Source: Solirubrum puertoriconensis
Lineage (GTDB): Bacteria; Bacteroidota; Bacteroidia; Cytophagales; Hymenobacteraceae
Direction of reading: 5' to 3'
DNA: 64,000 bases
NCBI RefSeq assembly: GCF_001483135.1
Contig: NZ_LNAL01000006.1
Location: 186,003-250,002 of the forward strand
Shown: positions 1,340 to 40,081 of the stretch, in pieces
How positions within the stretch are numbered: position 1 is the stretch's first letter
How the letters are laid out: every line of letters begins with the position of its first letter
Notes under the pieces: model-generated
Told to the model about the DNA's origin: nothing
Seen by the model: the letters and a program-made list of their open reading frames with translations, nothing else
Databases searched by the model: none
Program-made: the position numbers and the translations under genes

Positions 1340-2701
1340 TCAGCGCACGCTCACCTCGTTGTTCTGGATCATACGATAAATGGTAGACTTCCCGATTTTC
1401 AGAAGTTGAGCTACGTGCAAAATATTTCCGTTGTGCACGTCGAGGTAGCGCTGCACAATGCGCGCAATTTGCTGCCGCAACGACTCATCGGCGGGTATTT
1501 CACCGTTGCCACCTGAGCCGTTGCGCAACGATAAATCGGCGGGGCCAATCAGCTCGTCTTCGGCCAGCACGGCAGCCAGCTCCACCACGGCTTTTAGCTC
1601 GCGCACATTGCCAGGAAACGAATGGTGCAGAAGCTGCTGTTTGGCTGCTTCGGAAAGCTGCCGCGGCGGCAAGTGATTTTGGGCGCAGAACGCCCGCAAA
1701 AAGGCGTCGGCCAGCAGCAGTACATCGGTGCCCCGCTCGCGCAGCGGGGGCAGCACAATGGGCAAACCCAGGAGGCGGTAGTACAAATCTTGGCGGAAGC
1801 GGCCTTCCTTTACCTCCTGCTCGAGGTTGCGGTGGGTGGCCACAATCAACCGCGCATCAAAGCTGATGGTTTTGCTGCCGCCTACCCGCGTAAGCTCGCG
1901 CTCTTGCAGCACGCGCAGCAGCTTGGCCTGCAGGTTCAGGTCGAGGTCGGCAATTTCATCCAGAAACAAGGTGCCGCCGTGCGCCTGCTCAAAACGCCCA
2001 ATGCGCCGGTTTACGGCTCCGGTAAAGGCGCCTTTCTCGTGGCCGAACAGCTCGCTTTCGAGCAGCTCGCGCGGAATGGCCGTTACGTTTACGGCCACAA
2101 ACGGCTGCTGCTGCCGCACCGAGCGGTAGTGAATGGCCTTGGCTACCAGCTCCTTGCCCGTGCCCGTTTCGCCACTTACCGATACCGTGATGCCCGTGCG
2201 CGCGGCTTTCTCTATAAGCGTGAATAGCTCCTTAATGGGCTGGCTGTTGCCGATGATGGCCTGCTTCGGATCGAACTTCTGGCCTACTTGCTCGCGTAGC
2301 CGCTGGTTTTCGCGGCGCAGGGCCAGCTGCTCGCGCACTTTCAGCACGCTGTGCCACAAACGGTCGGGCGTTTCCGCATCCTTGGCAAAGTAGTCGTAGG
2401 CACCTTGCTTTAACAGTCCCACGGCCGTGTTTACGTCTTCCTGTGCCGAAATCACGATGATGGGTACGTTGGGTAGTCGCTCCTGCAGCTGACGCAATAC
2501 CTGCTCGCCCGTGCCATCGGGCAGCGAATAATCGAGCGTAACCATATCGGGTTTTTCGGTAGCCAGGTGCTGAAAGCAAGCCTGCGCCGACGAAAACTGC
2601 CGCACGGTATAATCCGGGTTTTGAGTCAGCTTGTACGCTAGTAGTTCGCTGTACAACGCGTTGTCCTCAATAATAAAAATAGTAACAGGGGCGTGCGGCA
2701 T
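1340..2701 (-). CDS. Sigma-54-dependent response regulator (NtrC family)
   Basis: A three-domain bacterial enhancer-binding protein of about 453 residues. An N-terminal receiver (about 5-120) carries the acidic pocket IIEDN and the phospho-acceptor in VTLDYSLPDG. The AAA+ domain (about 150-385) has Walker A GETGTGKE, an intact GAFTGA loop that contacts sigma-54, and Walker B GGTLFLDEI. A C-terminal Fis-type helix-turn-helix ends the protein (NILHVAQLLKIGKSTIYRM). I chose the ATG at 2701 because the receiver fold begins directly there; an upstream in-frame ATG at 2740 would add 13 residues. The PAS sensor begins 40 bases downstream on the same strand and is the likely partner. Its target promoters are not evident nearby. 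Confidence 0.93.
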   Translation of the reverse strand: MPHAPVTIFIIEDNALYSELLAYKLTQNPDYTVRQFSSAQACFQHLATEKPDMVTLDYSLPDGTGEQVLRQLQERLPNVPIIVISAQEDVNTAVGLLKQGAYDYFAKDAETPDRLWHSVLKVREQLALRRENQRLREQVGQKFDPKQAIIGNSQPIKELFTLIEKAARTGITVSVSGETGTGKELVAKAIHYRSVRQQQPFVAVNVTAIPRELLESELFGHEKGAFTGAVNRRIGRFEQAHGGTLFLDEIADLDLNLQAKLLRVLQERELTRVGGSKTISFDARLIVATHRNLEQEVKEGRFRQDLYYRLLGLPIVLPPLRERGTDVLLLADAFLRAFCAQNHLPPRQLSEAAKQQLLHHSFPGNVRELKAVVELAAVLAEDELIGPADLSLRNGSGGNGEIPADESLRQQIARIVQRYLDVHNGNILHVAQLLKIGKSTIYRMIQNNEVSVR

Positions 2702-27634: not shown

Positions 27635-27658
27635 GAACACACTGTCCATAACCGGACA
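27635..27658 (+). promoter_or_regulatory. Upstream activator site, copy 1 (adaptor-channel operon)
   Basis: Three half-sites: GAACA (27635), TGTCC (27643) and GGACA (27654), in the arrangement GRACA-N3-TGTYC-N6-GGACA, followed by a T-tract. The centre of the TGTCC/GGACA dyad is 75 bp upstream of the -24 GG of the sigma-54-like promoter. Identical geometry occurs at 32426 and 39471. Inference: binding site of the NtrC-type regulator encoded at 36455-37849. Confidence 0.75.
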
Positions 27659-27722
27659 ACTTTTTTGTACAACTCAACAAGGTATACATTTATAAAATAA
27701 TGATAATCAATTTGTTATAAGT

Positions 27723-27740
27723 TTGGCATTGGGCTTGGCT
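27723..27740 (+). promoter_or_regulatory. Sigma-54-like promoter, copy 1
   Basis: TTGGCA-N6-TTGGCT. The -24 half fits the sigma-54 consensus TTGGCA; the -12 half has TTGG in place of the usual TTGC, a deviation shared by all three copies. The adaptor ATG is 41 bases from the first T of the -12 half, exactly as at copy 3. Confidence 0.7.
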
Positions 27741-27775
27741 ATTACTATCCGAATCCGACCCCAATCCTAACGAAA

Positions 27776-29026
27776 ATGGACAGAGCTATTTCGCCCGCCA
27801 CGCATGCCAAACGCCGCACCCGGCGCCTGTTGCTGGTAGTTACCGCCTTGGCGGTGGCGGCCGTGGGCCTGTGGGCCTTCCGCGGTGTGCTGAAGCCCAG
27901 CATCAGGCAGGAGGAAATTCTGACGGCGGCCGTAGAAACCGGCGACGTAGAGGCTTCCATCACGGCTACCGGCCTCATCATTCCGGCGCACGAGGCGGTT
28001 ATCACCAGCCCCATCCAGTCGAGCATTCGGCGGGTGCTGCTTACGGCCGGCGCCAAGGTGCAGCCCGGGCAGCCTATCCTGGAGCTCGACAAGGAGCTAA
28101 CCAGCAGCGCGCTGGCTAAGCTGCAGGACGAGCAACTGCAAAACCGCAACGAAAGCACCCTGCTGCAGCTCTCCCTGGAGCGCAGCCTCAACGACCTGGA
28201 GGCGCAGGAGAAAGTGCAGCAGGAGAAAGTGCGCAGCCTGCAATCGGCCCTGCGCGACGAACAGCACCTGCTCGGAATCGGCTCGGGCACCCAGGAGAGT
28301 GTACGCCAGGCCGAGCTGAACCTGAAGATTGCCGAGCTGGAGCTGCAGAAGGTGCGCCGCCAAATCAGCAACCAGCGCCGCTCCAACGATGCCGACGAGC
28401 GCGGCCTGGGCTACACGATGCAGATTCAGGACCGCAACATTACCGAGCTGGCGCATAAGCTGCGCCAAGCCAACATCAGCTCCGACCAGGCCGGCGTGCT
28501 TACCTGGGTAAGCGAAGACATCGGCTCGACCGTGAACCAAGGCCAAGTGCTGGCCCGCGTGGCCGACCTGAGCTCGTTCCGGGTGCGGGGCTCCATTGCC
28601 GACACCTACGCCGACTCGCTGCACGTGGGCGACCCCGTGATTGTGCGCCTAGGTAGCAGCACCGATTTGCGCGGCACCATCAGTTCCATCAGCCCCGCTG
28701 CCGACAAAGGCGTGATGACTTTCTACGCCCAACTCGAGCAAAACAACCACCCCGCATTGCGCGCCAATCTGCGGGCCGATGTGTACGTGGTGACGCGCGC
28801 CCACCGCGGCGTGATGCGCGTGAAGAACGGCCCCTTTTACCAGGGCGGGCGCGAGCAGCCAGTGTTTGTGCTGGAAGACGGCAAGGCCGTGCGCCGCACC
28901 GCACGCTTCGGCGACTCCAACTTCGACTACGTGCAGATTATCAGCGGCGTGCGCCCCGGCGAGGAGCTGATCATCAGCGAAACCAAGGACTACGAACAGG
29001 CCCCCGAGCTCAGCATCAAGCGCTAA
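27776..29026 (+). CDS. Periplasmic adaptor (HlyD/MacA-type membrane fusion protein)
   Basis: 416 residues. One N-terminal membrane helix (LLLVVTALAVAAVGLWAF, about 19-36) anchors it in the inner membrane. Next come a lipoyl half-motif (GDVEASITATGLIIPAHEAVI), a long coiled-coil hairpin (about 115-225) and the second half with beta-barrel (GVLTWVSEDIGSTVNQGQ, then LSSFRVRGSIADTYADSL). Such adaptors connect an inner-membrane ABC transporter to a TolC channel. It is the first gene after the sigma-54-like promoter and is followed by the channel gene; the matching ATPase and permeases lie 3.6 kb away under an identical control module. Substrate not visible, but peptide export is plausible by context. 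Confidence 0.92.
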   Translation: MDRAISPATHAKRRTRRLLLVVTALAVAAVGLWAFRGVLKPSIRQEEILTAAVETGDVEASITATGLIIPAHEAVITSPIQSSIRRVLLTAGAKVQPGQPILELDKELTSSALAKLQDEQLQNRNESTLLQLSLERSLNDLEAQEKVQQEKVRSLQSALRDEQHLLGIGSGTQESVRQAELNLKIAELELQKVRRQISNQRRSNDADERGLGYTMQIQDRNITELAHKLRQANISSDQAGVLTWVSEDIGSTVNQGQVLARVADLSSFRVRGSIADTYADSLHVGDPVIVRLGSSTDLRGTISSISPAADKGVMTFYAQLEQNNHPALRANLRADVYVVTRAHRGVMRVKNGPFYQGGREQPVFVLEDGKAVRRTARFGDSNFDYVQIISGVRPGEELIISETKDYEQAPELSIKR

Positions 29027-29065
29027 GCCCACCCTTCTTTTCTCCCGACACTGCCCTTCTGAGCT

Positions 29066-30586
29066 ATGAACCGACTAAATCTACCCTTTGTGCTGGAGGT
29101 GTTGCGGCTGTGGTTGCTGATGCTGGGCGCCACCGTAGTACTGGTGCTGCTAACCATGTCGATAGCCTGGGCGCAACCAACCGCACCAGCGCAGCCCGCC
29201 CTTACGCTGCCGCAGGTAATTGAGCTAACCCTAGGTCAGTCGTCGGTGGCGAAGCAGGCCGTAACCAACCGCGAAACCAGCCTGTGGCAGTACCGCTCGT
29301 TTCGGGCCGACTACAAGCCGCAACTCGCCCTGGAGGGCGTGCTGCCCAACTACAGCCGCACCATTACGCCCGTAACGCAGCCCGATGGCACCACCGATTT
29401 TCGTTACGTGCGCATCAACAACTCGTACCTGGCTACTACCCTAAGTCAAGGCATCGGCCTTACGGGCGGGCGTATTTCGGTGGGCTCCACGCTGCAGCGC
29501 TTCGATAACTTCGAGGGCAACCAGCGTCTCTACAACAGCAACCCCGTGGCAATAGGGTTGGTGCAGCCCATTGCAGGCTTTAATGCCCTGAACTGGAACA
29601 AGCGCATCGAGCCGCTGCGCTACGAGGAGTCGCAGCGGCAGTACGTGGAGGAGCGCGAAACCATTGCGCGCCGCGCCACCGAGCTGTACTTCGATGTGCT
29701 GCTGCAGCAGGTAAACGCGAGCATTGCGCGCCAAAACCGCCAAGTAAGCGAAGACATGCTGCGCATGGGCCGCGAGCGGCACCGCCTAGGTCGGCTCTCG
29801 GAAAACGACCTGCTGCTGCTCGAGCTGAACCTGCTGAACGCCCAACAAGCCGAAGTGCAGGCCAACGTGGATGCCCAAAACGCCGCCGTGCAGCTCAAAG
29901 GCTACACCGGCCTGACGGTAGACGCCGCCGCTACGCTCGATGTGCCCGCGGCCGCCCCCAAGCTGGAGGTAGCGCCCGAAGCAGCCTTGGCCCAGGCCCG
30001 GCAGTACCGGCGCGAGTCGCTGATGTTTCAGCGGCGCCTGCTCGAGGCCGACCGCAACGTGGCGCAGGCCAAGGGTACTACCGGTTTTCAAGCCAGCCTC
30101 ACGGCCTCGTTTGGCTTAGCGAGCAGCGGCGAGCAGTTTCGCACCAGCTACGTTAACCCCAACGACCAACAGCAGGTGCGCCTGGGTTTCTCGATGCCTA
30201 TTGTGGATTGGGGCAAGACGCGCGCCACCGTGAAAACCGCCGAGCTGGCCCGCCAACAGGCCAAAGTAACCGTGGAGCAGGAGCAAATGACCTTTGAGCA
30301 ATCGGTACTGTCGCAGGCGGCGCAGTTGGGTGCCCTGGAGCAGCAGCTGGCCCTGGCCGCGCGCGCCGATTCGCTGGCGCAGCGCCGCTACAACATTGCC
30401 CGCGCCACGTACCAGGTGGGTCGCATTTCGCTTACCGACCTCAACATTGCCCAAAGCGAGAAAGATCGCGCCAAGCGCGCCTACATTGCGGCGCTGCGCG
30501 CCTCGTGGGTGGCCTATTACCAGTTGCGCACCCTCACGCTCTACGATTTTGAGCGGCAGCAGCCCTTGCTGGCGGCCAGCAACTAA
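29066..30586 (+). CDS. TolC-family outer-membrane efflux channel
   Basis: 506 residues. The N-terminus has a hydrophobic signal segment (LLMLGATVVLVLLTMSIAWAQ). The rest shows the two-fold repeated helical and strand pattern of outer-membrane efflux proteins: LPQVIELTLGQSSVAKQA at the start of the first repeat, PVAIGLVQPIAGFNALNW as a strand region, and GRISLTDLNIAQSEKDRAKRAYI near the end of the second. It forms the trimeric exit duct for the adaptor encoded 39 bases upstream, in the same operon. A 20-bp stem terminator follows. Confidence 0.92.
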   Translation: MNRLNLPFVLEVLRLWLLMLGATVVLVLLTMSIAWAQPTAPAQPALTLPQVIELTLGQSSVAKQAVTNRETSLWQYRSFRADYKPQLALEGVLPNYSRTITPVTQPDGTTDFRYVRINNSYLATTLSQGIGLTGGRISVGSTLQRFDNFEGNQRLYNSNPVAIGLVQPIAGFNALNWNKRIEPLRYEESQRQYVEERETIARRATELYFDVLLQQVNASIARQNRQVSEDMLRMGRERHRLGRLSENDLLLLELNLLNAQQAEVQANVDAQNAAVQLKGYTGLTVDAAATLDVPAAAPKLEVAPEAALAQARQYRRESLMFQRRLLEADRNVAQAKGTTGFQASLTASFGLASSGEQFRTSYVNPNDQQQVRLGFSMPIVDWGKTRATVKTAELARQQAKVTVEQEQMTFEQSVLSQAAQLGALEQQLALAARADSLAQRRYNIARATYQVGRISLTDLNIAQSEKDRAKRAYIAALRASWVAYYQLRTLTLYDFERQQPLLAASN

Positions 30587-30634
30587 GCCCTAGGTAAGCG
30601 GCGGGCTCGGCCATACGACAGCCCCCCTTCCAAT

Positions 30635-30680
30635 AACCCAGCGGCCCGCTGCTCACGACAGAGCAGCGGGCCGCTGGGTT
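30635..30680. terminator. Bidirectional terminator between tolC-type and ompA-type genes
   Basis: AACCCAGCGGCCCGCTGCTC is exactly mirrored at 30661-30680 around a six-base loop; AA/TT ends allow weak U-tracts in both directions. It separates convergent genes. Confidence 0.8.
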
Positions 30681-30686
30681 TTAAGG

Positions 30687-32330
30687 TTAGCGTTTCTTTT
30701 CCCACTCGGTCACGCGCTTGCCTTGCAGGCGCTGGCCTAGGTTGCGAATCCATACGCCGGCTTTGGTGCGTGGCTGGGCTTTTACGCGTTTGCGCTTGCG
30801 GCGCTCAGCGGGTTGTTCAGCACCCTCGGCAGCGCCCGAGTTACGAGCCTTAGCAACCGCCGTGGGCTCGGGAGCTGGCAGCTCGTTTGGTGGCAGCAGC
30901 ATGTTGCGTGGCAAACCGGCTTCGCCATCCTTGCTGATGACGCGCACGCTCAGGCGGCGGTTGAGGGCGCGGCCTACTGCTCCGGCATTGGAGGCAATAA
31001 AATAATTGGCCCCGAAGCCTTCGGCCCGCAGGCGGCGAGGGTCTACGCCAAAGCGAACCAACGTGCGGCGGGCTTCGTCGGCGCGTTGTTGGCTGAGCTT
31101 AAGGTTGGCAGCCGGGTCGCCGGTACCATCGGTGTAGCCGCCCAACTGCAGGTACACCTCCGGAAAGGCTTTCAGGAGCTTGGCTACGTTGCGCAATTGT
31201 TCGCGCGAGCCGTCGGTAAGGGTAGCGCGCCCCGGCTCGAAGTACACGCGGTCGAGATTGACCCAACCCACGGCGGGGCTGATGGTGTTGGGCCCTTTGC
31301 TCGGGTCGGAAAGAAAGCGGTAGAGCTGGTACTCGGTGGAGTTGGTGCCCACATTCAGGGTGTTGCCATCGGCTAGCGTAACCAGCAGCTGCGGGCCGGT
31401 TTCGCGGATGTAGGTATCCGTGAGCACATCGTAGTAGCCGGCAGGGTAGGAGTTGGCCGTAGGTACGGCGCGGGCTGAGGTAGCATCGGCGGTGGACACG
31501 GCAACCGGTGCAATGGCTTGCGCCGGGGCTGGCACAAGCTTGGAGCGATACCCAAAACCGAAGCCCAAACCTAGGGCTGGCACCAACAGCAGCGCCCATT
31601 GCCATTTCGGCGCTTTGCGCCGCCGCACATTGGTGAGGGCAGGCGTAAAGGTGATGCCTCCGCCAACTGTGCCCCACGTGCCGTCGGCGGCCGAAGTAAG
31701 CTTTGGGGCTGGTTGGGGCGCGGCCGGGGCCTGCGCTGGCCGCCGCGGCGCGGAGGCAGGGGTAGGCACAGGACCGGCGACAGGCCTGTCGATGGGTTCG
31801 GCTGTGGTGGTTGCCGGTTGCAGGGGAGTTGGCCGGGGGCTGGCGGGTTGGTGCTGTAGCCACTCGCTTAGGGCAGCGGCATTGAGCCCGTGCTCGTCGG
31901 CGTGTTTGCCCAGGGTGCCCAGCACGGCGGCCACGGCCACATCGAGTAGGTGCTGAAACTCGGCGGCCGATAAGTTGTGGCGCGCTGCCATAGCCGAGGT
32001 AGTACTGGCGTACGCATCGGCCAGCAGGCCCTGCATCAGCGTTACGCCGCGGCCGTGCCAGGGCTGCCGGCCGGCCGTGCTTAGTTGCTGCAGCACCTCG
32101 TGCTGGTGAGCTTGCCGGGTAAGCGTCCAGAGGGCCTCGCTACCGTTGGGCTGGCGGGCGCGCCCTGCCAAGGCACTTACCACGAGCGGCAGCACCTCGG
32201 CAAAAGTTTGCTCGATGGCGGCAGTATCGTGGTCGAGAGCGGTACCTAGGGCGTTCAGGTGCTCGGCCTGCAGAAAAGTATGGACCTCTTCCACTAGGGC
32301 TTTATCGGGGCTCATGGTAGTCGTGGGCAT
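30687..32330 (-). CDS. DUF937-OmpA fusion protein with one membrane segment
   Basis: 547 residues. The N-terminal 150 residues are of DUF937 type (EALWTLTRQAHQHEVLQQL, SAAEFQHLLDVAVAAVLGTL), a helical domain of unknown role. A Pro/Ala-rich linker and one membrane helix (KWQWALLLVPALGLGFGFGY, about 238-257) follow. The C-terminal OmpA domain begins near VYFEPGRATLTDGS and includes LGGYTDGTGDPAANLKLSQQRADEAR and NRRLSVRVI, the peptidoglycan-binding pattern. The protein should span the inner membrane with OmpA in the periplasm. It sits opposite to the export genes between the two halves of the ABC system; a structural role there is only a guess. A start at 32315 is equally possible. Confidence 0.85.
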   Translation of the reverse strand: MPTTTMSPDKALVEEVHTFLQAEHLNALGTALDHDTAAIEQTFAEVLPLVVSALAGRARQPNGSEALWTLTRQAHQHEVLQQLSTAGRQPWHGRGVTLMQGLLADAYASTTSAMAARHNLSAAEFQHLLDVAVAAVLGTLGKHADEHGLNAAALSEWLQHQPASPRPTPLQPATTTAEPIDRPVAGPVPTPASAPRRPAQAPAAPQPAPKLTSAADGTWGTVGGGITFTPALTNVRRRKAPKWQWALLLVPALGLGFGFGYRSKLVPAPAQAIAPVAVSTADATSARAVPTANSYPAGYYDVLTDTYIRETGPQLLVTLADGNTLNVGTNSTEYQLYRFLSDPSKGPNTISPAVGWVNLDRVYFEPGRATLTDGSREQLRNVAKLLKAFPEVYLQLGGYTDGTGDPAANLKLSQQRADEARRTLVRFGVDPRRLRAEGFGANYFIASNAGAVGRALNRRLSVRVISKDGEAGLPRNMLLPPNELPAPEPTAVAKARNSGAAEGAEQPAERRKRKRVKAQPRTKAGVWIRNLGQRLQGKRVTEWEKKR

Positions 32331-32425
32331 ACATCAAGGGGCAATCTGCTACAGTACGCGAATAAGGGCCGGTGGTTGGGCAACTGGGTAGGTAGCTCAA
32401 ATCGCACATCAGCACCTTCATTTCC

Positions 32426-32449
32426 GAACACCTTGTCCAGAACCGGACA
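32426..32449 (+). promoter_or_regulatory. Upstream activator site, copy 2 (ABC operon)
   Basis: GAACA (32426), TGTCC (32434), GGACA (32445) in the same GRACA-N3-TGTYC-N6-GGACA form, then a T-tract. Its dyad centre is again 75 bp from the -24 GG. An extra GGACA in AACCGGACAAC (32565-32575) lies beyond the predicted start of transcription and repeats an 11-mer of copy 1; it could modulate the operon. Confidence 0.75.
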
Positions 32450-32513
32450 TTTTTTTAGAAGCATGTTTCATTGGTATTCGATGCAAATTCCTGTAATAAA
32501 GCAATATATGCAA

Positions 32514-32531
32514 TTGGCACGCGGCTTGGCT
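32514..32531 (+). promoter_or_regulatory. Sigma-54-like promoter, copy 2
   Basis: TTGGCA-CGCGGC-TTGGCT; the -24 part TTGGCACG is a full consensus match. The next credible start codon is at 32636, giving a leader near 95 bases, longer than at the other two copies. Confidence 0.72.
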
Positions 32532-32635
32532 TACTCTACTGCGCCCCGGTGTGCGGTTGCTCAAAACCGGACAACCCACGGCGCCTCCCTTTCCTCAACG
32601 CAGGCCAAACCCCGAAAACAAACCCGACCGATCCT

Positions 32636-33376
32636 ATGGAACCGACCCTGACCACGAGCCACGCACTGACCGATTCGCGCGCCACCACGTCGCTCAAAAA
32701 CACGCCTATGATCAAGCTCTCCGAAATTGAGAAAGTGTACCAGACCGATACCATCGAGACGGTGGCACTGAACCGCGTGAACCTAACGATCAACCGGGGC
32801 GAGTTCGTGTCCATCATGGGGCCGTCGGGCTGCGGCAAATCCACCCTGCTGAGCCTGATGGGTCTGCTCGACGAGCCCACCAGCGGCACTATCGAAATCG
32901 ACGGCCGCCCCGTTACGAGCTACTCCGATAAGGAGCTCGCCAAGGTGCGCAACCACAAAATCGGGTTCATCTTCCAGAGCTTCCACCTCATCAACGACCT
33001 CTCGGTACTCGATAACGTGGAGCTGCCCCTGCTGTACCGCGCGGGCATGGGCGGCAAGGAGCGCCGCCAACGCGCTCTGGCAGCCCTCGAAAAAGTAGGC
33101 TTGAGCGCCCGCACCAAGCACTTTCCGTCGCAGCTATCGGGCGGGCAGCGCCAGCGCGTAGCCATTGCCCGCGCCCTGGCCGGCGCCCCCGAAATCATCT
33201 TGGCCGACGAACCTACCGGCAACCTCGACTCGGTGATGGGAGAGGAAATAATGGAGCTGCTGCTGACCCTGCACCGCGAGGCCAACACCACCATTGTGAT
33301 GGTAACGCACGACGAAAGCATGGCCCTGAAAACCGAGCGCGTGATTCGCTTCTTCGACGGTAGCCAGGTTAGCTAA
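32636..33376 (+). CDS. ABC transporter ATPase, MacB/LolD type
   Basis: 246 residues from the ATG at 32636; an in-frame ATG at 32708 begins directly at the conserved domain (MIKLSEIEKVYQTD) and is a good alternative. Complete ATPase motifs: Walker A MGPSGCGKSTLL, Q-loop FIFQSFHL, signature LSGGQRQRVAIARALA, Walker B IILADEPTGNLD, and H-loop MVTHDES. The TGNLD form is typical of the LolD/MacB branch that drives mechanotransmission rather than classic import. It leads an operon with a small membrane protein and two FtsX-type permeases and is controlled by sigma-54-like module 2. Confidence 0.94.
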   Translation: MEPTLTTSHALTDSRATTSLKNTPMIKLSEIEKVYQTDTIETVALNRVNLTINRGEFVSIMGPSGCGKSTLLSLMGLLDEPTSGTIEIDGRPVTSYSDKELAKVRNHKIGFIFQSFHLINDLSVLDNVELPLLYRAGMGGKERRQRALAALEKVGLSARTKHFPSQLSGGQRQRVAIARALAGAPEIILADEPTGNLDSVMGEEIMELLLTLHREANTTIVMVTHDESMALKTERVIRFFDGSQVS

Positions 33377-33397
33377 TTCATCGGTCCTCTTTCTACC

Positions 33398-33577
33398 ATG
33401 AAACGCCTGTGGCAAGCGGTAGGCCTGGTGCTAATGGCCGCGCTCCTTCTGCTGGCTGGTGCCGGCCTCCACGCTCTTTTGGTGCCGGTGCCGCCGGCTC
33501 GCCGCCCTGCGGCCAAGCCCACGCTGCTTCTGGTGGATCCTCAACCCTCCTCTGCTTCCCAAATCTATGCTGCTTAG
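33398..33577 (+). CDS. Small membrane protein of the ABC operon, 59 residues
   Basis: A short ORF between the ATPase and the first permease. It starts MKRLWQAVGLVLMAALLLLA, one N-terminal membrane helix or uncleaved signal, then a Pro/Arg-rich stretch (VPVPPARRPAAKP) and a short tail ending IYAA. It begins 22 bases after the ATPase stop, and its last 11 bases overlap the permease start in another frame, so translation is probably coupled. I recognise no family. It could be a small transporter subunit, a substrate or an assembly factor. Confidence 0.6.
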   Translation: MKRLWQAVGLVLMAALLLLAGAGLHALLVPVPPARRPAAKPTLLLVDPQPSSASQIYAA

Positions 33578-34820
33578 CTATCTAAAACTCGCTTGGAAGG
33601 TGCTCTTGCGTCGCAAGTTCTTCACCTTTATCAGCCTCTTCGGCATCGCCTTTACCCTGATGGTGCTGCTGGTGGTGGTGGCTCTGTTCGACCACACCGT
33701 GGGCGCCCACTACCCTGAGTCGCGCCTCGACCGCATGACCTTTGCGCAGTTTCTGCACGTGCGTTATAAAGACGGTGGCAACATGAACACCCCGCCCAGC
33801 TACTACGTGCTTGATAAATACGTGCGCACGCTGCGCACCCCCGAGAAGGTGTCTATTGCCTCGAACTTCCACGCCACGCCGAGCTACGTGGGCAACCGCA
33901 AGCTGGACCTGGACTTGCGCTATACCGATGCTGCTTTCTGGCAGATTATGGACTTCAACTTCACGCAGGGCAAGCCGTTCCTGGAAGCCGATGTGAAAGC
34001 CGGTTCCCGCGTGGCCGTTATCAACCGCAGCACGGCGCGCCAGTACTTTGGCACCGAAGCAGGGGTCGTCGGCCGCACCATTGTGGTAAACCAAACCAGT
34101 TTCCGGGTGCAGGGCGTGGTAGAAGACGTGCCGGCCATGCGCTTCAGCTCGTACGCCGACGTATGGGTGCCCCTGAGCACCAGCCCCGACGATTTGCAGC
34201 GCGTGCAGTTGCAGGGCGACTACTTAGCAATTATCCTAGCCAAGTCGGAGGCCGACGTGCCGGCTGTACAAGCCGAGTTTGAGCAGGCTATGAAACGCGT
34301 GCCACTGCCCGACCCCAAAAACATGGAGTACCTGGACCTGCACGCCGACCGGCTAATTGCGTCCATCTCCCGGCAGCTGATGAGCCCGCTCACCGAATAT
34401 AAGTCCGATGGGTTGGAGCTGCTCTACCCCATTCTGGCAGGCTTGGCCCTGCTGTTCATGATCTTACCGGCCCTGAACCTGGTGAACATCAACGTGAGCC
34501 GCATCATGGAGCGCTCCTCGGAAATCGGGGTACGCAAAGCCTTTGGCGCTACGGGCGGCAAGCTGGTCAGCCAGTTCCTGGTCGAGAACATCTTCCTCAC
34601 GCTGATTGGCGGAATACTGGGGTTGCTGCTGGCCTACGTGACCCTGCAAATCATCAGCGGCTCGCAGTTGCTGGCCTACGCGCAATTCGAAATGAACTGG
34701 CGCATTTTCAGTTGGGCCTTGCTCGTGACAGTATTCTTCGGGGTGCTATCGGGGGTATACCCTGCCTTCAAAATGTCGCGTCTGCAACCGGTGCAGGCTT
34801 TGAAAGCCAGCGGCAAGTAA
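33567..34820 (+). CDS. MacB/FtsX-type ABC permease, first copy
   Basis: 417 residues from the ATG at 33567 (MLLSYLKLAWKVLLRRKFF). Membrane helix 1 lies at about 20-45 (FISLFGIAFTLMVLLVVVAL), followed by a large periplasmic MacB_PCD domain (about 50-270) and three C-terminal helices (LLYPILAGLALLFMILPAL, FLTLIGGILGLLLAYV, IFSWALLVTVFFGVLSGVY). The coupling segment MERSSEIGVRKAFGATGGKL is the FtsX family hallmark. A longer upstream start at 33459 would overlap the small membrane protein and is rejected. It should form a heterodimer with the second permease and extract a periplasmic or membrane substrate. Confidence 0.92.
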   Translation: MLLSYLKLAWKVLLRRKFFTFISLFGIAFTLMVLLVVVALFDHTVGAHYPESRLDRMTFAQFLHVRYKDGGNMNTPPSYYVLDKYVRTLRTPEKVSIASNFHATPSYVGNRKLDLDLRYTDAAFWQIMDFNFTQGKPFLEADVKAGSRVAVINRSTARQYFGTEAGVVGRTIVVNQTSFRVQGVVEDVPAMRFSSYADVWVPLSTSPDDLQRVQLQGDYLAIILAKSEADVPAVQAEFEQAMKRVPLPDPKNMEYLDLHADRLIASISRQLMSPLTEYKSDGLELLYPILAGLALLFMILPALNLVNINVSRIMERSSEIGVRKAFGATGGKLVSQFLVENIFLTLIGGILGLLLAYVTLQIISGSQLLAYAQFEMNWRIFSWALLVTVFFGVLSGVYPAFKMSRLQPVQALKASGK

Positions 34821-34890
34821 TTCAACCAGTCCAGGGTAAACAGCGCCGTGCTTCGGCCAGCCCCGCCCGACGACCTAGCTAGCTACAACC

Positions 34891-36090
34891 ATGATTCGTC
34901 ACCTCTTCACCCTGATCTGGAACCGCAAGCGGTCCAACTTTCTGCTGATCAGCGAAATTCTGCTCTCGTTCTTCGTGCTGTTTGTGGTGAGCAGCCTGCT
35001 GGTGAGCAGCTACTACAACTACCGGCAGCCCACCGGATTTGCTTACGACAACGTGTGGGAAATCAACGTTTCGCCGGGCCAGGATACAGCCAACCGCAAG
35101 GAAATGGTGCAGCTGATGATGCAGCAGCTGCGGGCTACGCCGGGCGTGGTAGCCGTTACGATTACTGGCTCCAACACCCCGTTTGCGTTCAGCACCATGA
35201 ACTCAAACCAGTACATGTATAAGGGGAAGCAGGCACCAATGACCGATTGGTATAGGGTAGATGACGACATGCCAAAGGTGCTGAAGTTCAATTTAACGCA
35301 CGGCCGGTGGTTTGACCGCCGCGACGACGCCGCGACCAACAACGAGCCGGTAGTTATCAACCAGAAAATGGCCTCGGAGATGTTCGGGCAGGAAGCGCCG
35401 CTGGGCAAGGTGCTCACCGACCGCGAAAGCAAAGCCAAGTGGCAGGTAGTGGGGGTTGTCGACGCTTACCGCCCCGGCAGCGCTTTTGCCGCCAACGACC
35501 CGGCTATCTTCTTCCGCGACGATCTAAGCGAAGCCGCCACCAAGGTCGACCCCAACGAGCGTCCTATATTGCTGGTGCGGGTGCAGCCAGGCAGCGGCGC
35601 CGTGCTGGAGCAGCAACTGGTGAAAAAAATCCAGAACGTGACCAAGGGCTGGCACGCCATTGTAAACACCCTAGAAGAAAACCGCCACGATAAAATGAAG
35701 GTGGTGCTGACGCCGCTTGTTGCCCTAGGTGTGGTGTCGCTGTTTTTGATCATCAACGTAGCGCTAGGTCTGTTTGGCGTGCTGTGGTACAACATCAACC
35801 AGCGCAAAGCCGAAATTGGCCTGCGCCGGGCACTGGGCGCTACGGGCTCGGGCATCGGAACGCAGTTCTTGGGCGAAATGCTGGTGGTAACTACGCTGGG
35901 CGTGCTGGCCGGCGTGGTGTTGGCGGCGCAGTTTCCGTTGCTGGGTGTGTTTGGCCTAGAGCCGACGGTGTACATCCTGGCCATCATCTTGGCTGCCGTG
36001 CTCATCTTCGTTCTCACGGCCATCTGCGCCTTCCAGCCCAGCCGCATTGCCGCTGGTATTCAGCCTGCCGTGTCGTTGCGCGAGGAATAG
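34891..36090 (+). CDS. MacB/FtsX-type ABC permease, second copy
   Basis: 399 residues with the same topology as the preceding gene: one N-terminal helix (FLLISEILLSFFVLFVVSSL), a periplasmic domain of about 220 residues, and three C-terminal helices (VALGVVSLFLIINVALGLFG, MLVVTTLGVLAGVVLAAQFP, YILAIILAAVLIFVLTAICA). The coupling motif is QRKAEIGLRRALGATGSGI. The two permeases are diverged, so a heterodimeric transporter is likely. The pair ATPase + two short permeases + separate adaptor and channel differs from the E. coli MacB arrangement, in which ATPase and permease are fused. It ends the operon; a MITE-like repeat follows. Confidence 0.92.
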   Translation: MIRHLFTLIWNRKRSNFLLISEILLSFFVLFVVSSLLVSSYYNYRQPTGFAYDNVWEINVSPGQDTANRKEMVQLMMQQLRATPGVVAVTITGSNTPFAFSTMNSNQYMYKGKQAPMTDWYRVDDDMPKVLKFNLTHGRWFDRRDDAATNNEPVVINQKMASEMFGQEAPLGKVLTDRESKAKWQVVGVVDAYRPGSAFAANDPAIFFRDDLSEAATKVDPNERPILLVRVQPGSGAVLEQQLVKKIQNVTKGWHAIVNTLEENRHDKMKVVLTPLVALGVVSLFLIINVALGLFGVLWYNINQRKAEIGLRRALGATGSGIGTQFLGEMLVVTTLGVLAGVVLAAQFPLLGVFGLEPTVYILAIILAAVLIFVLTAICAFQPSRIAAGIQPAVSLREE

Positions 36091-36099
36091 CTGAATGCC

Positions 36100-36381
36100 C
36101 AAGCTCCCCTCCTCAGATGAGCAGGGGACGCGGCAGCCGCAGGCTGACGCTGGGGTGGTTGACCTCGCGTCAGATACTAACCTCAACTAACTAGCCCGTC
36201 ATGCTGAGCCTGTCGAAGCATCTCGATAGGTAGCAAAGTCACTATTCAGTGTCAGCACGCGGGATGTCTTGAAAAGCTCGACATGATGGGCTAAGTTGAC
36301 CTAAGGCATTGGTCCAGGCGTCAGCCCAACGACCATCAACCACCCCGCCCTTCGGGCACCCCTCCTCAGCTAAGGAGGGAA
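36100..36381. mobile_element. MITE-like palindromic repeat, copy 2
   Basis: Same ends as copy 1 at 20879: AAGCTCCCCTCCTCAG ... GGGGTGGTTGACC on the left and ATCAACCACCCCGCCC ... CCCCTCCTCAG on the right. The core hairpin (CGTCATGCTGAGCCTG / CGACATGATGGGC) is more degenerate than in copy 1 and 20 bp longer. It lies between the ABC operon and the regulator gene; the whole gap 36091-36454 is filled by it, so the regulator promoter must lie in or just after it. Confidence 0.75.
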
Positions 36382-36454
36382 ATTGTTGTTCGGCCGCCGC
36401 TTCTCTTTCCGTCCCGAAATTCCGTCCTTCGCTACTCTCTCAACGGCCATTCCC

Positions 36455-37849
36455 ATGATACTCATCGTCGACGACGACATTGCCGTGCGCACCTCGCTGG
36501 GGCTGTTGCTTAAGCAGGCTGGCTACGCCACCAAAGCCGTAGGCACCCCCGACGATGCCTTGCGCGTGGTGCGCGAAACACCGCCGCAATTGGTGCTCAT
36601 GGACATGAACTACTCCATGGCCACCACCGGCGAAGACGGCCTACGCCTCCTAGGTCAGGTAAAGGAAATTGCGCCGCAGGTACCCGTTATCCTCATCACG
36701 GGTTGGGGCTCTATTTCGCTGGCCGTGGAAGGCATGAAAGCCGGCGCCGCCGAGTTCGTAACCAAGCCCTGGAACAACGACTCGCTGCTGCAAACCATTC
36801 GCACCGTCATCAGCCTGGCCGAAGCCCACGCCGCCCACCCCGACGATGAGGTGAGCCCCACCCGCCGCCAGCTCGATCGGCAGTACAACTTCAAGAACAT
36901 CGTAGGCCAGGATGCCCAGTTGCTGCAGGTGCTGCGCAGCGTGGGGCAAGTAGCCGCCACCGATGCTTCGGTGCTGATTGAGGGCGAATCGGGTACGGGT
37001 AAGGAGCTCATTGCCGAGGCCATTCACCTGAACTCGCACCGCCGCAACAAGCCCTTCGTGAAGGTGAACCTAGGCGGCATTTCGGCCTCGTTGTTCGAGA
37101 GCGAGATGTTCGGTCATCGCCGCGGCGCTTTTACCGATGCCAAAGCCGACCGCCAGGGCCGCTTCGAAATGGCCAACGGCGGCACCATCTTCCTCGACGA
37201 AATTGGCGAGCTGGACATGGGCTCACAGGTGAAGCTGCTGCGCGTGCTGCAAGACCGCACCTACGAGGTGCTCGGCGATTCGCGCAGCCGCTCGCTCGAT
37301 ATCCGGGTGATTTGCGCCACCAACCGCGACCTAGCCCAAGAGGTGCGCGAAGGCCGCTTCCGCGAGGACTTGTTCTACCGCATCAACCTAATTACGGTGC
37401 GCCTGCCCGCCCTGCGCGAGCGGCCCGACGATATTCCGCTGCTGGCGCAGCACTTCATCAACAACCTGCGCACGGCCTACAACCGCCACGCCCTGAAGGT
37501 GAACACCCGCGCCCTGCACTGGCTGCGCGACCAGCAGCTGCCCGGCAACATTCGGGAGCTGAAAAACCTGGTGGAGCGCGCCGTGCTGGTAAGCGGCAAG
37601 GATGAGCTCGGGCCTGAGGAGTTTCAGGCGCAAGCCCAGCGCACCACGGCCAAGGCCGTGGTGCCCGGCGAGCTGCCCGCCGTAGGCATGATGACGCTCG
37701 ACGAAATGGAGGCGCAAATGATCCGCAAAACCGTGGATTTCTATGCCGGCAACCTCTCGCGCGTGGCCAAAGCCCTAGGGCTAAGCCGGGGGGCACTGTA
37801 CCGCCGCCTCGAGAAGTTCAACATTCCCTACGACGCCGCGCAACCGTAG
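36455..37849 (+). CDS. Sigma-54-type response regulator of the export/peptide cluster
   Basis: 464 residues. The start is fixed at ATG 36455 by MILIVDDDIAVRTSLG, the receiver N-terminus. The receiver ends near residue 125 (phospho-acceptor LVLMDMNYS). The AAA+ domain (about 150-385) has Walker A GESGTGKE and Walker B GGTIFLDEIGELD. Where most family members have GAFTGA it reads GAFTDA (GHRRGAFTDAKADRQGRF), a variant in the loop that touches sigma-54. A Fis-type helix-turn-helix is at the end (LSRVAKALGLSRGALYRRLEK). It is followed by its kinase and lies amid three promoters that carry a shared activator-like site, so it is the obvious candidate activator. Confidence 0.93.
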   Translation: MILIVDDDIAVRTSLGLLLKQAGYATKAVGTPDDALRVVRETPPQLVLMDMNYSMATTGEDGLRLLGQVKEIAPQVPVILITGWGSISLAVEGMKAGAAEFVTKPWNNDSLLQTIRTVISLAEAHAAHPDDEVSPTRRQLDRQYNFKNIVGQDAQLLQVLRSVGQVAATDASVLIEGESGTGKELIAEAIHLNSHRRNKPFVKVNLGGISASLFESEMFGHRRGAFTDAKADRQGRFEMANGGTIFLDEIGELDMGSQVKLLRVLQDRTYEVLGDSRSRSLDIRVICATNRDLAQEVREGRFREDLFYRINLITVRLPALRERPDDIPLLAQHFINNLRTAYNRHALKVNTRALHWLRDQQLPGNIRELKNLVERAVLVSGKDELGPEEFQAQAQRTTAKAVVPGELPAVGMMTLDEMEAQMIRKTVDFYAGNLSRVAKALGLSRGALYRRLEKFNIPYDAAQP

Positions 37850-37927
37850 CCAGCCTTCGGGCGGTAGCGCGGCGTTGGTAGCTCGTGCTGCGGCCAGTTA
37901 GCTGTTGTTGCGCCGCCCTATCACGGC

Positions 37928-39298
37928 ATGAGTTTACGCACCAAGTACATTCTCTTCGTTGTCCTGATCCATGCGGCTATTGCGGCACTGGCAATGCAGT
38001 TTCGCAGCACCAACATGTGGCTGTTTATGGCAACGGAGCTGCTGCTCATCGTTACGGCTGTGCTCAGCATTCAGCTGTACCGCGGCTTTGTGCGCCCCCT
38101 CAACCTGATTGCGGCCGGTACCGAGGCCATCCGCGACCGAGACTTCACAATGAAGTTTTTGCCGGTAGGGCAGCAGGAAATGGATCAGCTGATTGATACC
38201 TACAACACCATGATCGACGAGCTGCGCCAGGAGCGCGTTACCCAGCACGAAAAAAGCTACTTGCTGGAGCGCCTGATTGCGGCCTCGCCAGCGGGTATTT
38301 TGCTGCTGAGCTTCGAGGGCACCATTGAGTCGCTGAACCCGGCGGCCGAGCGCTGCCTGCACTTGCCCGCGGCCGAGCTACTGGGCAAGCGCCCCGCCGA
38401 GCTGCCCGGCGAGTGGGGCCGCGCCCTAGGTGCTTTAGAGCCCGGCCAAACGGAGGTGGTGCAGTTATCGGGCCTGCAAACCTACCGCGCCAGCACCTCG
38501 CACTTCCTCGATCGGGGCTTTACGCGCTACTTCATCTTGCTAGAGGAGCTGACGCAGGAGCTGATTCGGCAGGAAAAGCAAGCCTACGAAAAGCTCATCC
38601 GGATGATGTCGCACGAGATAAATAACTCCATCGGCGCCGTCAACTCCATTCTGCAGTCGTTCCGCTACTACGCCCCGCAACTCGCCGCCGACGACCGCCC
38701 CGACTTTGAGGAAGCCTTGGATGTATCAGTAAACCGCAACACCCACCTGGCCAACTTCATTGCCAGCTTTGCCAACCTGGTGCGCCTGCCCGCGCCCACG
38801 CCGCGCCCCACCGACGTGCACGAGCTGCTAAAGGCCACTTGCCGCCTGCTGCAGGTGCAAAGCGAGAAGCGCAACATTACGTGGCACTGGGAGCTGGCGC
38901 CCGGCCCGCTGTACGTAGCGCTCGATGCGCAGCAGATGGAGCAAGCCTTGCTCAACATTTGCAAAAACGCCCTTGAGGCCATCGACCACGACGGCAACCT
39001 GTGGGTACGCACCACCGCCCAGCCGCCCGTAGTGCTGATTGAAAACGACGGCCCTGGCATTCCGCCCGAGGTGCAGCCGCACTTGTTTACGCCTTTCTTC
39101 AGCACCAAGCGCGATGGGCAAGGCATCGGCCTGACGATGATCCGGGACATTCTGCTGCACCACGGCTTCAGCTTCAGCTTGGCAACGCAGCCCAACGGCC
39201 GTACGGGGTTCACCATCAACCTGGTCAGCACAACTAGCGCTGCTGCACCAGATGCAGTAAGTGCTGCCAAGAGCCCCATGCCCGCTACTCCTGCTTAA
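37928..39298 (+). CDS. Histidine kinase without extracytoplasmic sensor (NtrB/AtoS-like)
   Basis: 456 residues. Two membrane helices (ILFVVLIHAAIAALAMQF, about 8-25, and LFMATELLLIVTAVLSIQLY, about 32-51) are joined by only a handful of residues, so there is no periplasmic sensor domain. A HAMP linker (FVRPLNLIAAGTEAIRDRDF), a PAS domain (about 115-220) and the kinase core follow: H-box MMSHEINNSIGAV, N-box LLNICKNALEAI, G1 ENDGPGIPPE, G2 DGQGIGLTMI. The short-loop topology is the intramembrane-sensing type often linked to membrane stress or antimicrobial peptides. It lies 78 bases after the regulator gene and should phosphorylate it. Confidence 0.92.
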   Translation: MSLRTKYILFVVLIHAAIAALAMQFRSTNMWLFMATELLLIVTAVLSIQLYRGFVRPLNLIAAGTEAIRDRDFTMKFLPVGQQEMDQLIDTYNTMIDELRQERVTQHEKSYLLERLIAASPAGILLLSFEGTIESLNPAAERCLHLPAAELLGKRPAELPGEWGRALGALEPGQTEVVQLSGLQTYRASTSHFLDRGFTRYFILLEELTQELIRQEKQAYEKLIRMMSHEINNSIGAVNSILQSFRYYAPQLAADDRPDFEEALDVSVNRNTHLANFIASFANLVRLPAPTPRPTDVHELLKATCRLLQVQSEKRNITWHWELAPGPLYVALDAQQMEQALLNICKNALEAIDHDGNLWVRTTAQPPVVLIENDGPGIPPEVQPHLFTPFFSTKRDGQGIGLTMIRDILLHHGFSFSLATQPNGRTGFTINLVSTTSAAAPDAVSAAKSPMPATPA

Positions 39299-39338
39299 GG
39301 GCGCCGCCGCTCGGGCCTAGGACCATAAGGTGAGTTAT

Positions 39339-39385
39339 AACCCAGAGCCGCTGATTGACAGTCGATCGGCGGCTCTGGGTTTTTT
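39339..39385 (+). terminator. Rho-independent terminator after the kinase gene
   Basis: AACCCAGAGCCGC and GCGGCTCTGGGTT form a 13-bp stem with a 17-base loop followed by TTTT. It separates the regulator-kinase unit from the peptide unit, which therefore needs its own promoter. Confidence 0.75.
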
Positions 39386-39470
39386 GTGCCTGTCGGATCT
39401 GGCGCTGCCCAGCCCTAGGTGCGCTCCAGTAATTATTTTTCAGGCAGCGGTGAGTGGGTGTAATGCGAGC

Positions 39471-39494
39471 GGACACGGTGTTCGATATCGGACA
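39471..39494 (+). promoter_or_regulatory. Upstream activator site, copy 3 (peptide operon)
   Basis: GGACA (39471), TGTTC (39479), GGACA (39490), same spacing as copies 1 and 2, followed by CCTTTT. The dyad core GGTGTTCGATATCGGACACC is nearly a perfect palindrome. Its centre is 75 bp from the -24 GG at 39561. Confidence 0.75.
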
Positions 39495-39558
39495 CCTTTT
39501 ATAGTTGCTGCTGTCGTTATTTTGTATGTAATAAATTGACTTACAAGGCATTATAAAG

Positions 39559-39576
39559 TTGGTACGCGCATTGGCT
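39559..39576 (+). promoter_or_regulatory. Sigma-54-like promoter, copy 3
   Basis: TTGGTA-CGCGCA-TTGGCT, then ATTACTACCCGAA, which closely resembles the leader of copy 1 (ATTACTATCCGAA). The ATG at 39612 is 41 bases from the first T of the -12 half, as at copy 1. This identical spacing supports 39612 as a true start codon. Confidence 0.72.
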
Positions 39577-39611
39577 ATTACTACCCGAAAACGCTAGAAA
39601 CCCACACAAAA

Positions 39612-39746
39612 ATGAACACGCACACCGCCCTCCGCAGCACCAGCCAACCTAGCCGCCGCGCACTGCCGGCCTTGCGGGCCATGGGCGGTGCACCCGTTCG
39701 GATCAGTCAAGCCGCGCCACGCCAAACCGCGCTTTGCGGCCGCTGA
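39612..39746 (+). CDS. Short basic peptide 1, 44 residues
   Basis: The first ORF behind sigma-54-like promoter 3, with an A-rich leader (CACAAAAATG) like the adaptor gene. It begins MNTHTALRST and contains SQPSRRALPALRAM, which aligns with SRPWRRANRRYLRAAL of peptide 2, then runs on for 20 residues and ends CGR. It is basic and has no acidic residue. It may be a diverged longer member of the peptide family or a leader cistron. No signal peptide of the usual kind is present. The promoter position is the main support; the coding case from composition alone would be weak. Confidence 0.55.
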   Translation: MNTHTALRSTSQPSRRALPALRAMGGAPVRISQAAPRQTALCGR

Positions 39747-39795
39747 TTTTCTCCTGCCTCAACACTTCGTCAAACGCCTCAACTCCTACACTACT

Positions 39796-39876
39796 ATGAA
39801 AACTGCCCTCACCGCCCGCACCCTCAGCCGTCCTTGGCGTCGCGCCAACCGCCGCTACCTGCGCGCTGCGCTGTAA
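39796..39876 (+). CDS. Short Arg/Trp-rich peptide 2, 26 residues
   Basis: It starts MKTALTARTL and continues SRPWRRANRRYLRAAL. It has seven Arg, one Lys and no acidic residue, so the net charge is about +8, and it is amphipathic. It shares RPWRRxxRRxLRxAL with peptide 3, including the start MKT and the C-terminal AL followed directly by the stop. Two tandem ORFs of equal length with matching ends argue for real genes rather than chance. Its nature resembles cationic membrane-active or signalling peptides. Target and export are unknown; the adjacent MacB-like system is a candidate exporter. Confidence 0.7.
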   Translation: MKTALTARTLSRPWRRANRRYLRAAL

Positions 39877-39927
39877 GTCCCCAGCCTCCGCAGAATTTAT
39901 TCAGCCCTCTCCAAACACCACACAGCC

Positions 39928-40011
39928 ATGAAAACTACTATCAGCACCCCCGCCGCTGCCGCTCGTCCTTGGCGCCGCATCAGCCGCCGCTGGTTGCGCA
40001 CGGCACTCTAG
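39928..40011 (+). CDS. Short Arg/Trp-rich peptide 3, 27 residues
   Basis: It starts MKTTISTPAAA and continues ARPWRRISRRWLRTAL. It has six Arg, one Lys, two Trp and no acidic residue. It is a paralogue of peptide 2: the MKT start, the RPWRR core and the xLRxAL end are the same, and the third-position changes between the two cores (CGTCCTTGGCGT versus CGTCCTTGGCGC) look like selection on the protein. It ends 18 bases before a 24-bp hairpin terminator, so the peptides form a closed three-gene unit from promoter to terminator. Confidence 0.7.
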   Translation: MKTTISTPAAAARPWRRISRRWLRTAL

Positions 40012-40028
40012 GCCGCAGCCATCTGCCC

Positions 40029-40081
40029 GTAAGCAGCAACGGCCCGCTTCCTACCAGAGGAAGCGGGCCGTTGCTGCTTAC
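40029..40081. terminator. 24-bp perfect hairpin ending the peptide unit
   Basis: GTAAGCAGCAACGGCCCGCT and the following TCCT are exactly mirrored at 40058-40081 around a five-base loop. The T-tract is weak (TTAAGTT), but the stem is very stable. Confidence 0.75.

Follow-up and report, generated by a model that had tools for sequence, protein, structure and literature searches.

Between positions 27635 and 40081 of the stretch analyzed here (the window; 64,000 nucleotides of Solirubrum puertoriconensis contig NZ_LNAL01000006.1), three very short open reading frames (ORFs) for basic Trp/Arg peptides, pepA, pepB, and pepC, lie in tandem behind the genes of a MacB-type tripartite pump, an NtrC-type response regulator, and a histidine kinase. 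The question is what such peptides do beside a pump and its sensor. The locus appears to be an envelope-stress regulon in which one control module is shared by the pump units and the peptide unit, and in which the peptides would serve as membrane-bound helpers; we put the probability of this whole reading, in which the signal and the binding partners are presumed, at about one half. Judged from sequence, the pump and the sensor are of known kinds, and the regulon is of a known kind with a new, lineage-restricted family of tiny peptides. An earlier note on this DNA had listed the adaptor, TolC channel, ABC ATPase, small membrane protein, two permeases, NtrC-type regulator, kinase, and three short ORFs, all of which are present by Pfam, hydropathy, or ORF reading. 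Genomes and loci other than the window are given G and L numbers.

Control module shared by three transcription units

Three units, all on the plus strand, are preceded by the same module.

27635 to 27739, plus strand: control module 1, before hlyD-tolC, with GAACAC and TGTCC-N6-GGACA (27635 to 27658), an IHF-like site, and TGGCAT-N5-TTGGC (27724 to 27739)
32426 to 32530, plus strand: control module 2, before the ABC ATPase unit
39471 to 39575, plus strand: control module 3, before the peptide unit, with GGACAC and TGTTC-N6-GGACA, and TGGTAC-N5-TTGGC

The module consists of an upstream activating sequence (UAS), TGTYC-N6-GGACA, followed by a promoter-like element, TGGYAY-N5-TTGGCT. The two elements start at 27643/27724, 32434/32515, and 39479/39560, and this identical 81-bp spacing agrees with the two-part control module that the earlier note had described before three transcription units. 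In the window, the UAS pattern has five matches (three sites, two of which match on both strands) against 0.24 expected, and the promoter pattern four against 0.02. The whole module, with up to three mismatches allowed, occurs in its own genome as three perfect sites, one with one mismatch, and one with two (reversed control, 1), and in eight genomes of the window's genus at 36 sites, 21 of them perfect (reversed control, 9). Among 31 genomes of a neighboring genus, 47 sites with up to two mismatches are found in 26 (control, 1).

The spacing is conserved beyond these genomes. A search with the kinase gave 47 loci, of which 39 were scanned for modules, the eight weakest being left out; the nearest named relatives are Hymenobacter species. 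All 30 Hymenobacter loci have a UAS-promoter pair at 80 to 82 bp before at least one unit, with at most one mismatch per element. Five of the nine more distant loci have a pair at 67 to 88 bp upstream of the adaptor gene, three have none, and in L063 the only pair is an unrelated one on the minus strand at 151. The logo, built from the 62 modules that an 80% identity filter left of 64, adds the left half-site GAACAC and the IHF-like WATCAANNNNTTR between the UAS and the promoter. The IHF-like site, with up to two mismatches to the IHF consensus, stands at a single position in 38 of the 62 modules, where shuffles reach at most 5.

The genome has rpoN and 12 matches to PF00158, six of which are full-strength sigma-54 activators. 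On the shared module and its conserved fixed spacing, the three units would form one regulon that presumably uses sigma-54. The single sigma-54-type regulon of the earlier note thus stands as far as the module, its spacing, and rpoN are concerned, while the use of sigma-54 is presumptive.

The ATG of pepA lies 36 nt past the promoter element, the same distance as for hlyD, and the hlyD promoter may have been copied to give that of the peptides. The two promoter-to-ATG stretches (27740 to 27775 and 39576 to 39611) are of equal length and match at 22/34 bases, the other module pairs at 10/34 and 13/34. The fourth promoter-like match in the window, TTGGCA-N6-TTGGCTA at 3056 to 3074, has no UAS in the pair scan and lies near another sigma-54 activator gene (about 1757 to 2257, minus strand).

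Three short genes under selection

The peptide unit comprises the following features.

39612 to 39746, plus strand: pepA, 44 aa (codon test, pepA profile)
39796 to 39876, plus strand: pepB, 26 aa, RPWRRxxRRYLRAAL (RPWRR profile, codon test)
39928 to 40011, plus strand: pepC, 27 aa, RPWRRxxRRWLRTAL (RPWRR profile, codon test)
40029 to 40081, plus strand: 24-bp hairpin 3' of pepC, no long T run (−51.2 kcal/mol, z −10.65)

As read from the DNA, the ORFs encode MNTHTALRSTSQPSRRALPALRAMGGAPVRISQAAPRQTALCGR, MKTALTARTLSRPWRRANRRYLRAAL, and MKTTISTPAAAARPWRRISRRWLRTAL (44, 26, and 27 aa). Two other genomes, G005 and G006, have three ORFs in the same order and promoter context with nearly equal spacing, and G002 (Hymenobacter sp. 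15J16-1T3B, locus L060) has a two-ORF version of the unit. Among the window, G005, and G006, the ratio of nonsynonymous to synonymous change (pN/pS) summed over the three ORFs is 0.42 to 0.48 per pair (Fisher p 0.0005 to 0.0015). Over all comparisons it is 0.45 in frame, the two other frames giving 1.17 and 1.16, and third positions change most; the DNA between the ORFs has diverged. With G002, for which pepC alone was used, the ratio is 0.38 (p 0.003) and 0.47 (p 0.036), and 0.59 for window pepC (p 0.11, not significant). Because of the in-frame ratio of 0.45 and the same order and promoter in other genomes, the three ORFs are, by the codon test and synteny, real protein-coding genes under selection.

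The RPWRR family has 12 invariant columns across seven sequences. Searches of Pfam, NCBIfam, and PHROGs with the peptides gave nothing at E up to 1, and the best match in PDB (E 0.013 over nine profile positions) is unconvincing. A strong hairpin follows the last peptide ORF in all four carrier genomes (z −4.1 to −10.65); its sequence is largely common to G005 and G006, and that of the window differs.

Distribution and descent of the peptides

Among 204 genomes of the family, the RPWRR profile has seven strong sites (E 2.1e-12 or better) in four genomes, all beside the same regulator; the four carriers all belong to the window's genus (4/8 genomes). The pepA profile finds the same four strongly, and seven weak matches at 7e-4 to 0.009. 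In most of the genomes only 41 first-look candidates were scored (35 for the pepA profile), and a diverged copy could escape. At E up to 0.1, RPWRR matches extend to 128 genomes, namely the four carriers and 124 with weak matches (from 4.4e-5 down). Seven of these weak matches were read: six are other-frame pieces that lack the MKT...RPWRR...end layout, and the seventh (L084) is in a locus cut at the contig start. In an order-level sample of 194 genomes, own genome included, only the own genome matches at 1e-5. No match to pepC was found in plasmids at E 1, and no confirmed relative of the RPWRR profile in viral contigs.

The earlier note had proposed a search of Hymenobacter and other Cytophagales genomes. 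Its outcome is divided: peptide ORFs beside the exporter are conserved in three other genomes, and the module and the cassette are widespread (30/30 Hymenobacter loci), but the peptides occur in only 4 of the 204 family genomes. Of the named Hymenobacter cassettes, 30 in all, 29 gave no peptide match and L060 alone gave one, and a sensitive tblastn search (E 0.01) added none; that search recovered the pepB/C-like ORF of L060 but not its pepA, and so can miss copies. For the region that follows the kinase gene, neither the pair scan nor inspection of 1.5 kb of sequence showed a third module in cavernae, jeollabukensis, gummosus, edaphi, busanensis, CRA2, and crusticola.

In a tree of regulator, kinase, and ATPase (19 chosen rows), the peptide label needs two changes. 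The window, G005, and G006 form a clade in this core tree, and G002 stands among species that have no peptides. The carriers divide 2 and 2 between the two permease types, and seven non-carriers in the same core clade 5 and 2; a strict tie of the peptides to one permease type was rejected, since carriers include both.

Pump, regulator, and kinase

The pump and its regulatory genes, with the hairpin that precedes the peptide unit, are arranged as follows.

27776 to 29026, plus strand: HlyD/MacA-type periplasmic adaptor, hlyD (Pfam HlyD_3, 1e-15)
29066 to 30586, plus strand: TolC-type outer membrane channel (Pfam OEP, 8.8e-39)
32636 to 33376, plus strand: ABC ATPase as a separate chain (Pfam ABC_tran, 2.1e-37 on 32708 to 33373)
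33398 to 33577, plus strand: small protein of 59 aa with one transmembrane helix (hydropathy)
33567 to 34820, plus strand: FtsX/MacB-type permease 1 (MacB_PCD 4.8e-27, FtsX 1.5e-17; Pfam scan frame from 33552)
34891 to 36090, plus strand: FtsX/MacB-type permease 2 (MacB_PCD 1.8e-14, FtsX 6.6e-14)
36452 to 37849, plus strand: NtrC-type response regulator (Pfam receiver, Sigma54_activat (AAA+), and HTH_8)
37928 to 39298, plus strand: HAMP/HATPase histidine kinase with two transmembrane helices (Pfam, hydropathy)
39339 to 39381, plus strand: terminator-like hairpin of 20 pairs, between the kinase and the peptide unit

The order ATPase-permease-permease-regulator-kinase is kept in 38 of the 39 loci scanned, the remaining one being cut by a contig end. 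The ATPase starts with MEPTLT..., and relatives with a similar N-terminus exist. Solved MacB structures were found as relatives of permease 1, in which hydropathy gives five segments, two of them overlapping; permease 2 has four helices. The 3' end of the gene for the 59-aa protein overlaps the start of permease 1 (TATGCTGCTTAG), and this overlap suggests that the two are probably translationally coupled. The YAA tail of the small protein was rejected as a signal, the tail being the overlap with the permease start.

The regulator and kinase genes sit 3' of the permeases within the module-2 unit, with a hairpin of 7 pairs in between that lacks a clear T run (terminator scan). Beyond the 39339 to 39381 hairpin, the peptide ORFs seem to form a separate unit. 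The terminator-like scan as a whole gave 17 sites against 12.6 ± 3.8 in shuffles, and only the unusual length of this hairpin is telling.

The architecture of the kinase should be noted. Its only helices are at residues 7 to 25 and 30 to 48, with an outer loop of about four residues and no outer sensor domain, and the same two-helix plan is found in the three other kinases examined (L041, L062, and L066). In Bce modules, as described in passages of PMC10314905, a kinase without an outer sensor domain has been proposed to read the cycle of an FtsX-type transporter. By analogy, the kinase here may follow a Bce-like logic.

In the mechanism that we propose, the kinase would respond to the condition of the membrane or the adjoining MacB-type pump and phosphorylate the NtrC-type regulator. 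The regulator would bind TGTYC-N6-GGACA about 100 bp upstream of the −24/−12 promoter, an IHF/HU-like protein would bend the DNA between the UAS and the promoter, and sigma-54 polymerase would be activated. Induction would reach the pump, a unit encoding an outer-membrane protein, and a small secreted protein; in this lineage it would extend to the peptides. Positive feedback, in which the regulator also raises itself, is likely because both regulatory genes lie in the module-2 unit, after the permeases. Induced by stress, the peptides would remain intracellular: as basic amphipathic helices lying on the cytoplasmic membrane's inner leaflet, they would modulate the pump or the kinase, or shield the membrane.

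Possible roles of the peptides

The role of amphipathic membrane-binding helper is assigned tentatively. For the basic 15-residue ends, the charge is +6 and the helical moment 0.81 to 0.89, a value that 0.8 to 2.2% of shuffles reach. The helper is ranked above an exported peptide because the peptides have no leader, are conserved rather than diversified, and are usually absent where the pump is present.

Several observations weigh against the reading as a regulon with membrane-bound helpers. The amphipathicity was computed on three near-copy 15-residue stretches without pepA. The −24 half of the promoter agrees with the printed Bacteroidia consensus, TGGCAC-N5-7-TTGCT (passages of PMC12316311), but the −12 element, TTGGC(T), is one base off TTGCT. 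A genome scan at up to one mismatch does not rise above its controls (TTGC form, 41 sites against 40; TTGG form, 38 against 45); the exact TTGG form occurs at two sites, one of which is module 2, and the exact TTGC form at none. In each of the two permease types, the two carriers are nearest neighbors (window and L060 at 100/99, L031 and L033), and because the closeness of the window and L060 permeases contradicts the core tree, it is possible that peptides and permeases were transferred together. Lastly, leaderless bacteriocins are made intracellularly and exported by transporters of HlyD-type protein, ATPase, and FtsX protein, according to passages of PMC7332713.

This last point leads to the strongest rival: the pump would export the peptides, which would be leaderless and either bacteriocin-like or signals, in the manner of DdHIJ with enterocin DD14 (EntDD14). 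We consider it serious but less likely than the helper role; it was weighted up slightly because of the carrier neighborhood within permease types and because, judged by titles, 5 of the 8 papers containing RPWRR are on antimicrobial peptides. Short basic Trp/Arg peptides without a leader, in tandem beside HlyD, ATPase, and FtsX genes, would suit it, and EntDD14 (PMC7332713) and AS-48 (PMC5985334) are precedents. In the former, ddHIJ (adaptor, ATPase, and FtsX/MacB-type protein) aids export of the leaderless bacteriocin, the ATPase mutant yielding 25% of the wild-type amount. The ATPase and adaptor here are also distantly similar to DarD and DarC, far below the cut-offs. Contrary to an export role, the peptide sequence is conserved, the carriers hold two permease pairs of each type, 29 of 30 cassettes have the pump and no peptide match, and none of the eight neighbors scanned with Pfam is a maturation enzyme. 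Moreover, ddAB plus ddHIJ were insufficient for EntDD14 production in another strain, as a passage of PMC7332713 reports.

A further reading, which we hold to be less probable again, combines cargo and signal: the cell would make cationic amphipathic peptides as pump cargo, and the sensor-less kinase would read their flux, the peptides being both product and signal in an alarm or weapon loop. The earlier note had offered the peptides as export substrates or as the ligand that the kinase senses. Neither can be general to the system, since most pump-regulator-kinase cassettes carry no peptides, with no match in 29 of the 30 Hymenobacter cassettes and carriers in 4 of 204 family genomes; the sensed ligand is weakened besides by a kinase that has no outer sensor domain.

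That the peptides bind RNA or ribosomes and tune translation in envelope stress is improbable. High arginine content and tiny size are all that favor it; the invariant Pro-Trp and the spaced hydrophobic positions would suit a membrane helix better, and no similarity appears to the families searched. It is very improbable that the peptides have no role and that the unit acts instead as an RNA or through the translation of leader ORFs. The strong end hairpin would fit such a function, but the constraint is at the protein level (pN/pS 0.45 in frame, more than 1 in either other frame), the spacers between the ORFs have diverged, and there is no listed ORF between pepC and the 40029 to 40081 hairpin. 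An ordinary efflux regulon beside chance open frames in GC-rich DNA, for which the weak RPWRR-like matches (E up to 0.1) in 124 GC-rich non-carrier genomes might speak, is rejected by the codon test and by synteny, the seven strong sites (E at most 2.1e-12) all lying in four genomes beside the same regulator.

Other genes of the proposed regulon and of the locus

The gene between the tolC and ATPase units has no control module in the scan for UAS-promoter pairs.

30687 to 32330, minus strand: OmpA/DUF937 gene (Pfam)

The genes 3' of 33 of the 36 modules in the window's genus (30 plus three more) were examined. They are hlyD, the ATPase gene, the peptides, a MarR-family gene, an outer-membrane beta-barrel gene, and genes for small secreted proteins. 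The peptide unit stands behind the module in three genomes by this pattern; that of G002 has 80-bp spacing. The MarR-family gene is behind the module in six of the eight genomes (by inspection of the sequence, with Pfam on one), and in a seventh, G002, the outer-membrane beta-barrel gene takes this place. In the regions fetched for L139, L144, L146, and L147, the beta-barrel gene lies 3' of the MarR gene (OMP_b-brl_3 by Pfam on L139). The MarR and beta-barrel genes behind the module (L139:5594-8925, L143, L144, L146, and L147) are probable regulon members.

Small secreted proteins are encoded behind the module in four genomes (G000, G005, G006, and G007). In the neighboring genus, 11 of the 47 sites were fetched, mostly those outside close pairs: five precede a similar-looking secreted protein, five hlyD, and one the ATPase gene. 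This family, often behind the module (L140:5389-6766, L141, L142, L145, L161, L162, L165, L167, and L169), has no Pfam name in the six members scanned, with only weak matches of beta-sandwich type. From their sequences, the module-marked genes look like an envelope-response set.

The permeases of the window are 50 to 53% identical to those of G006, against 95 to 97% for the ATPase, regulator, and adaptor, and DNA identity, about 90% on either side, is 50-69% over the stretch from about 33.6 to 36.0 kb. The permease genes (33567 to 36090) were seemingly exchanged as a pair between lineages (compared with L031 and L033). Between ATPase and permease, the slot of the one-helix protein in the window is taken in 14 of the 30 named Hymenobacter loci by a gene whose product of about 195 aa resembles, by eye, an extracytoplasmic function (ECF) sigma factor (L041, L043-L046, L049-L054, L070, L071, and L073). 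In H. busanensis (L039:4273-5875), a beta-lactamase-like gene, also judged by eye, stands there.

Comparison with known systems

We found no published description of the module, its regulator, or the peptide family in the literature searched, as judged from listings of papers. For the exporter part, the earlier note's view that no such system had been described was too strong in light of the prediction in passages of PMC12316311, discussed below. With this cis-regulatory code (UAS, IHF-like site, and −24/−12-like element at 81 bp), a regulon can be read from sequence in a group that has received little study; the peptides, a tiny protein family that is under selection and wired to an efflux pump, offer a clean, testable case. 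Peptides that tune the pump or the kinase would be a new case of small-protein regulators; exported ones would be Gram-negative leaderless peptides with exporter and sensor in one locus.

The darobactin exporter DarBCD shares a weak family similarity with the ATPase, adaptor, and permease here, all far below the curated cut-offs (DarD, 243 of 375 bits; DarC, 43.7 of 450; DarB, 26.3 of 700), and no radical SAM enzyme is among the eight neighbors scanned with Pfam. Enterocin DD14 (ddAB plus ddHIJ; passages of PMC7332713) is alike in its tandem short leaderless peptides and its exporter of adaptor, ATPase, and FtsX protein. Here, however, the host is Gram-negative, the promoter is of a stress type, and the peptides have no family match.

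MacAB-TolC has in common with the present pump the HlyD adaptor, the TolC channel, and the permease fold of MacB_PCD and FtsX. It differs in that the ATPase here is separate and two different permeases are present, the MacB equivalog score being far below its cut-off; it is under PhoPQ control according to a passage of PMC5985334, whereas NtrC/sigma-54-type control is predicted here. Like the locus, BceRS-BceAB pairs an FtsX-type transporter with a kinase that has two transmembrane helices and lacks an outer sensor domain, with feedback presumed here. In contrast, the transporter here is a MacB-type tripartite pump with about four helices per permease and no BceB of 10 transmembrane helices, and the regulator is of NtrC type.

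The control itself has several elements of an NtrC/sigma-54 regulon: a regulator with a receiver, a sigma-54 AAA+ domain, and a Fis-type helix-turn-helix, rpoN in the genome, and a dyad UAS at a fixed distance upstream. Sigma-54-type promoters of Flavobacterium psychrophilum serve envelope functions among others, as passages of PMC9723704 state. A 2025 study (PMC12316311) predicted from promoters that FtsX/COG0577 permeases of Bacteroidia, from the same phylum and of the same permease class as here, are under sigma-54 control. The cited passages of that paper do not name a regulator, a UAS module, or peptides, which are laid out here for one locus and its relatives.

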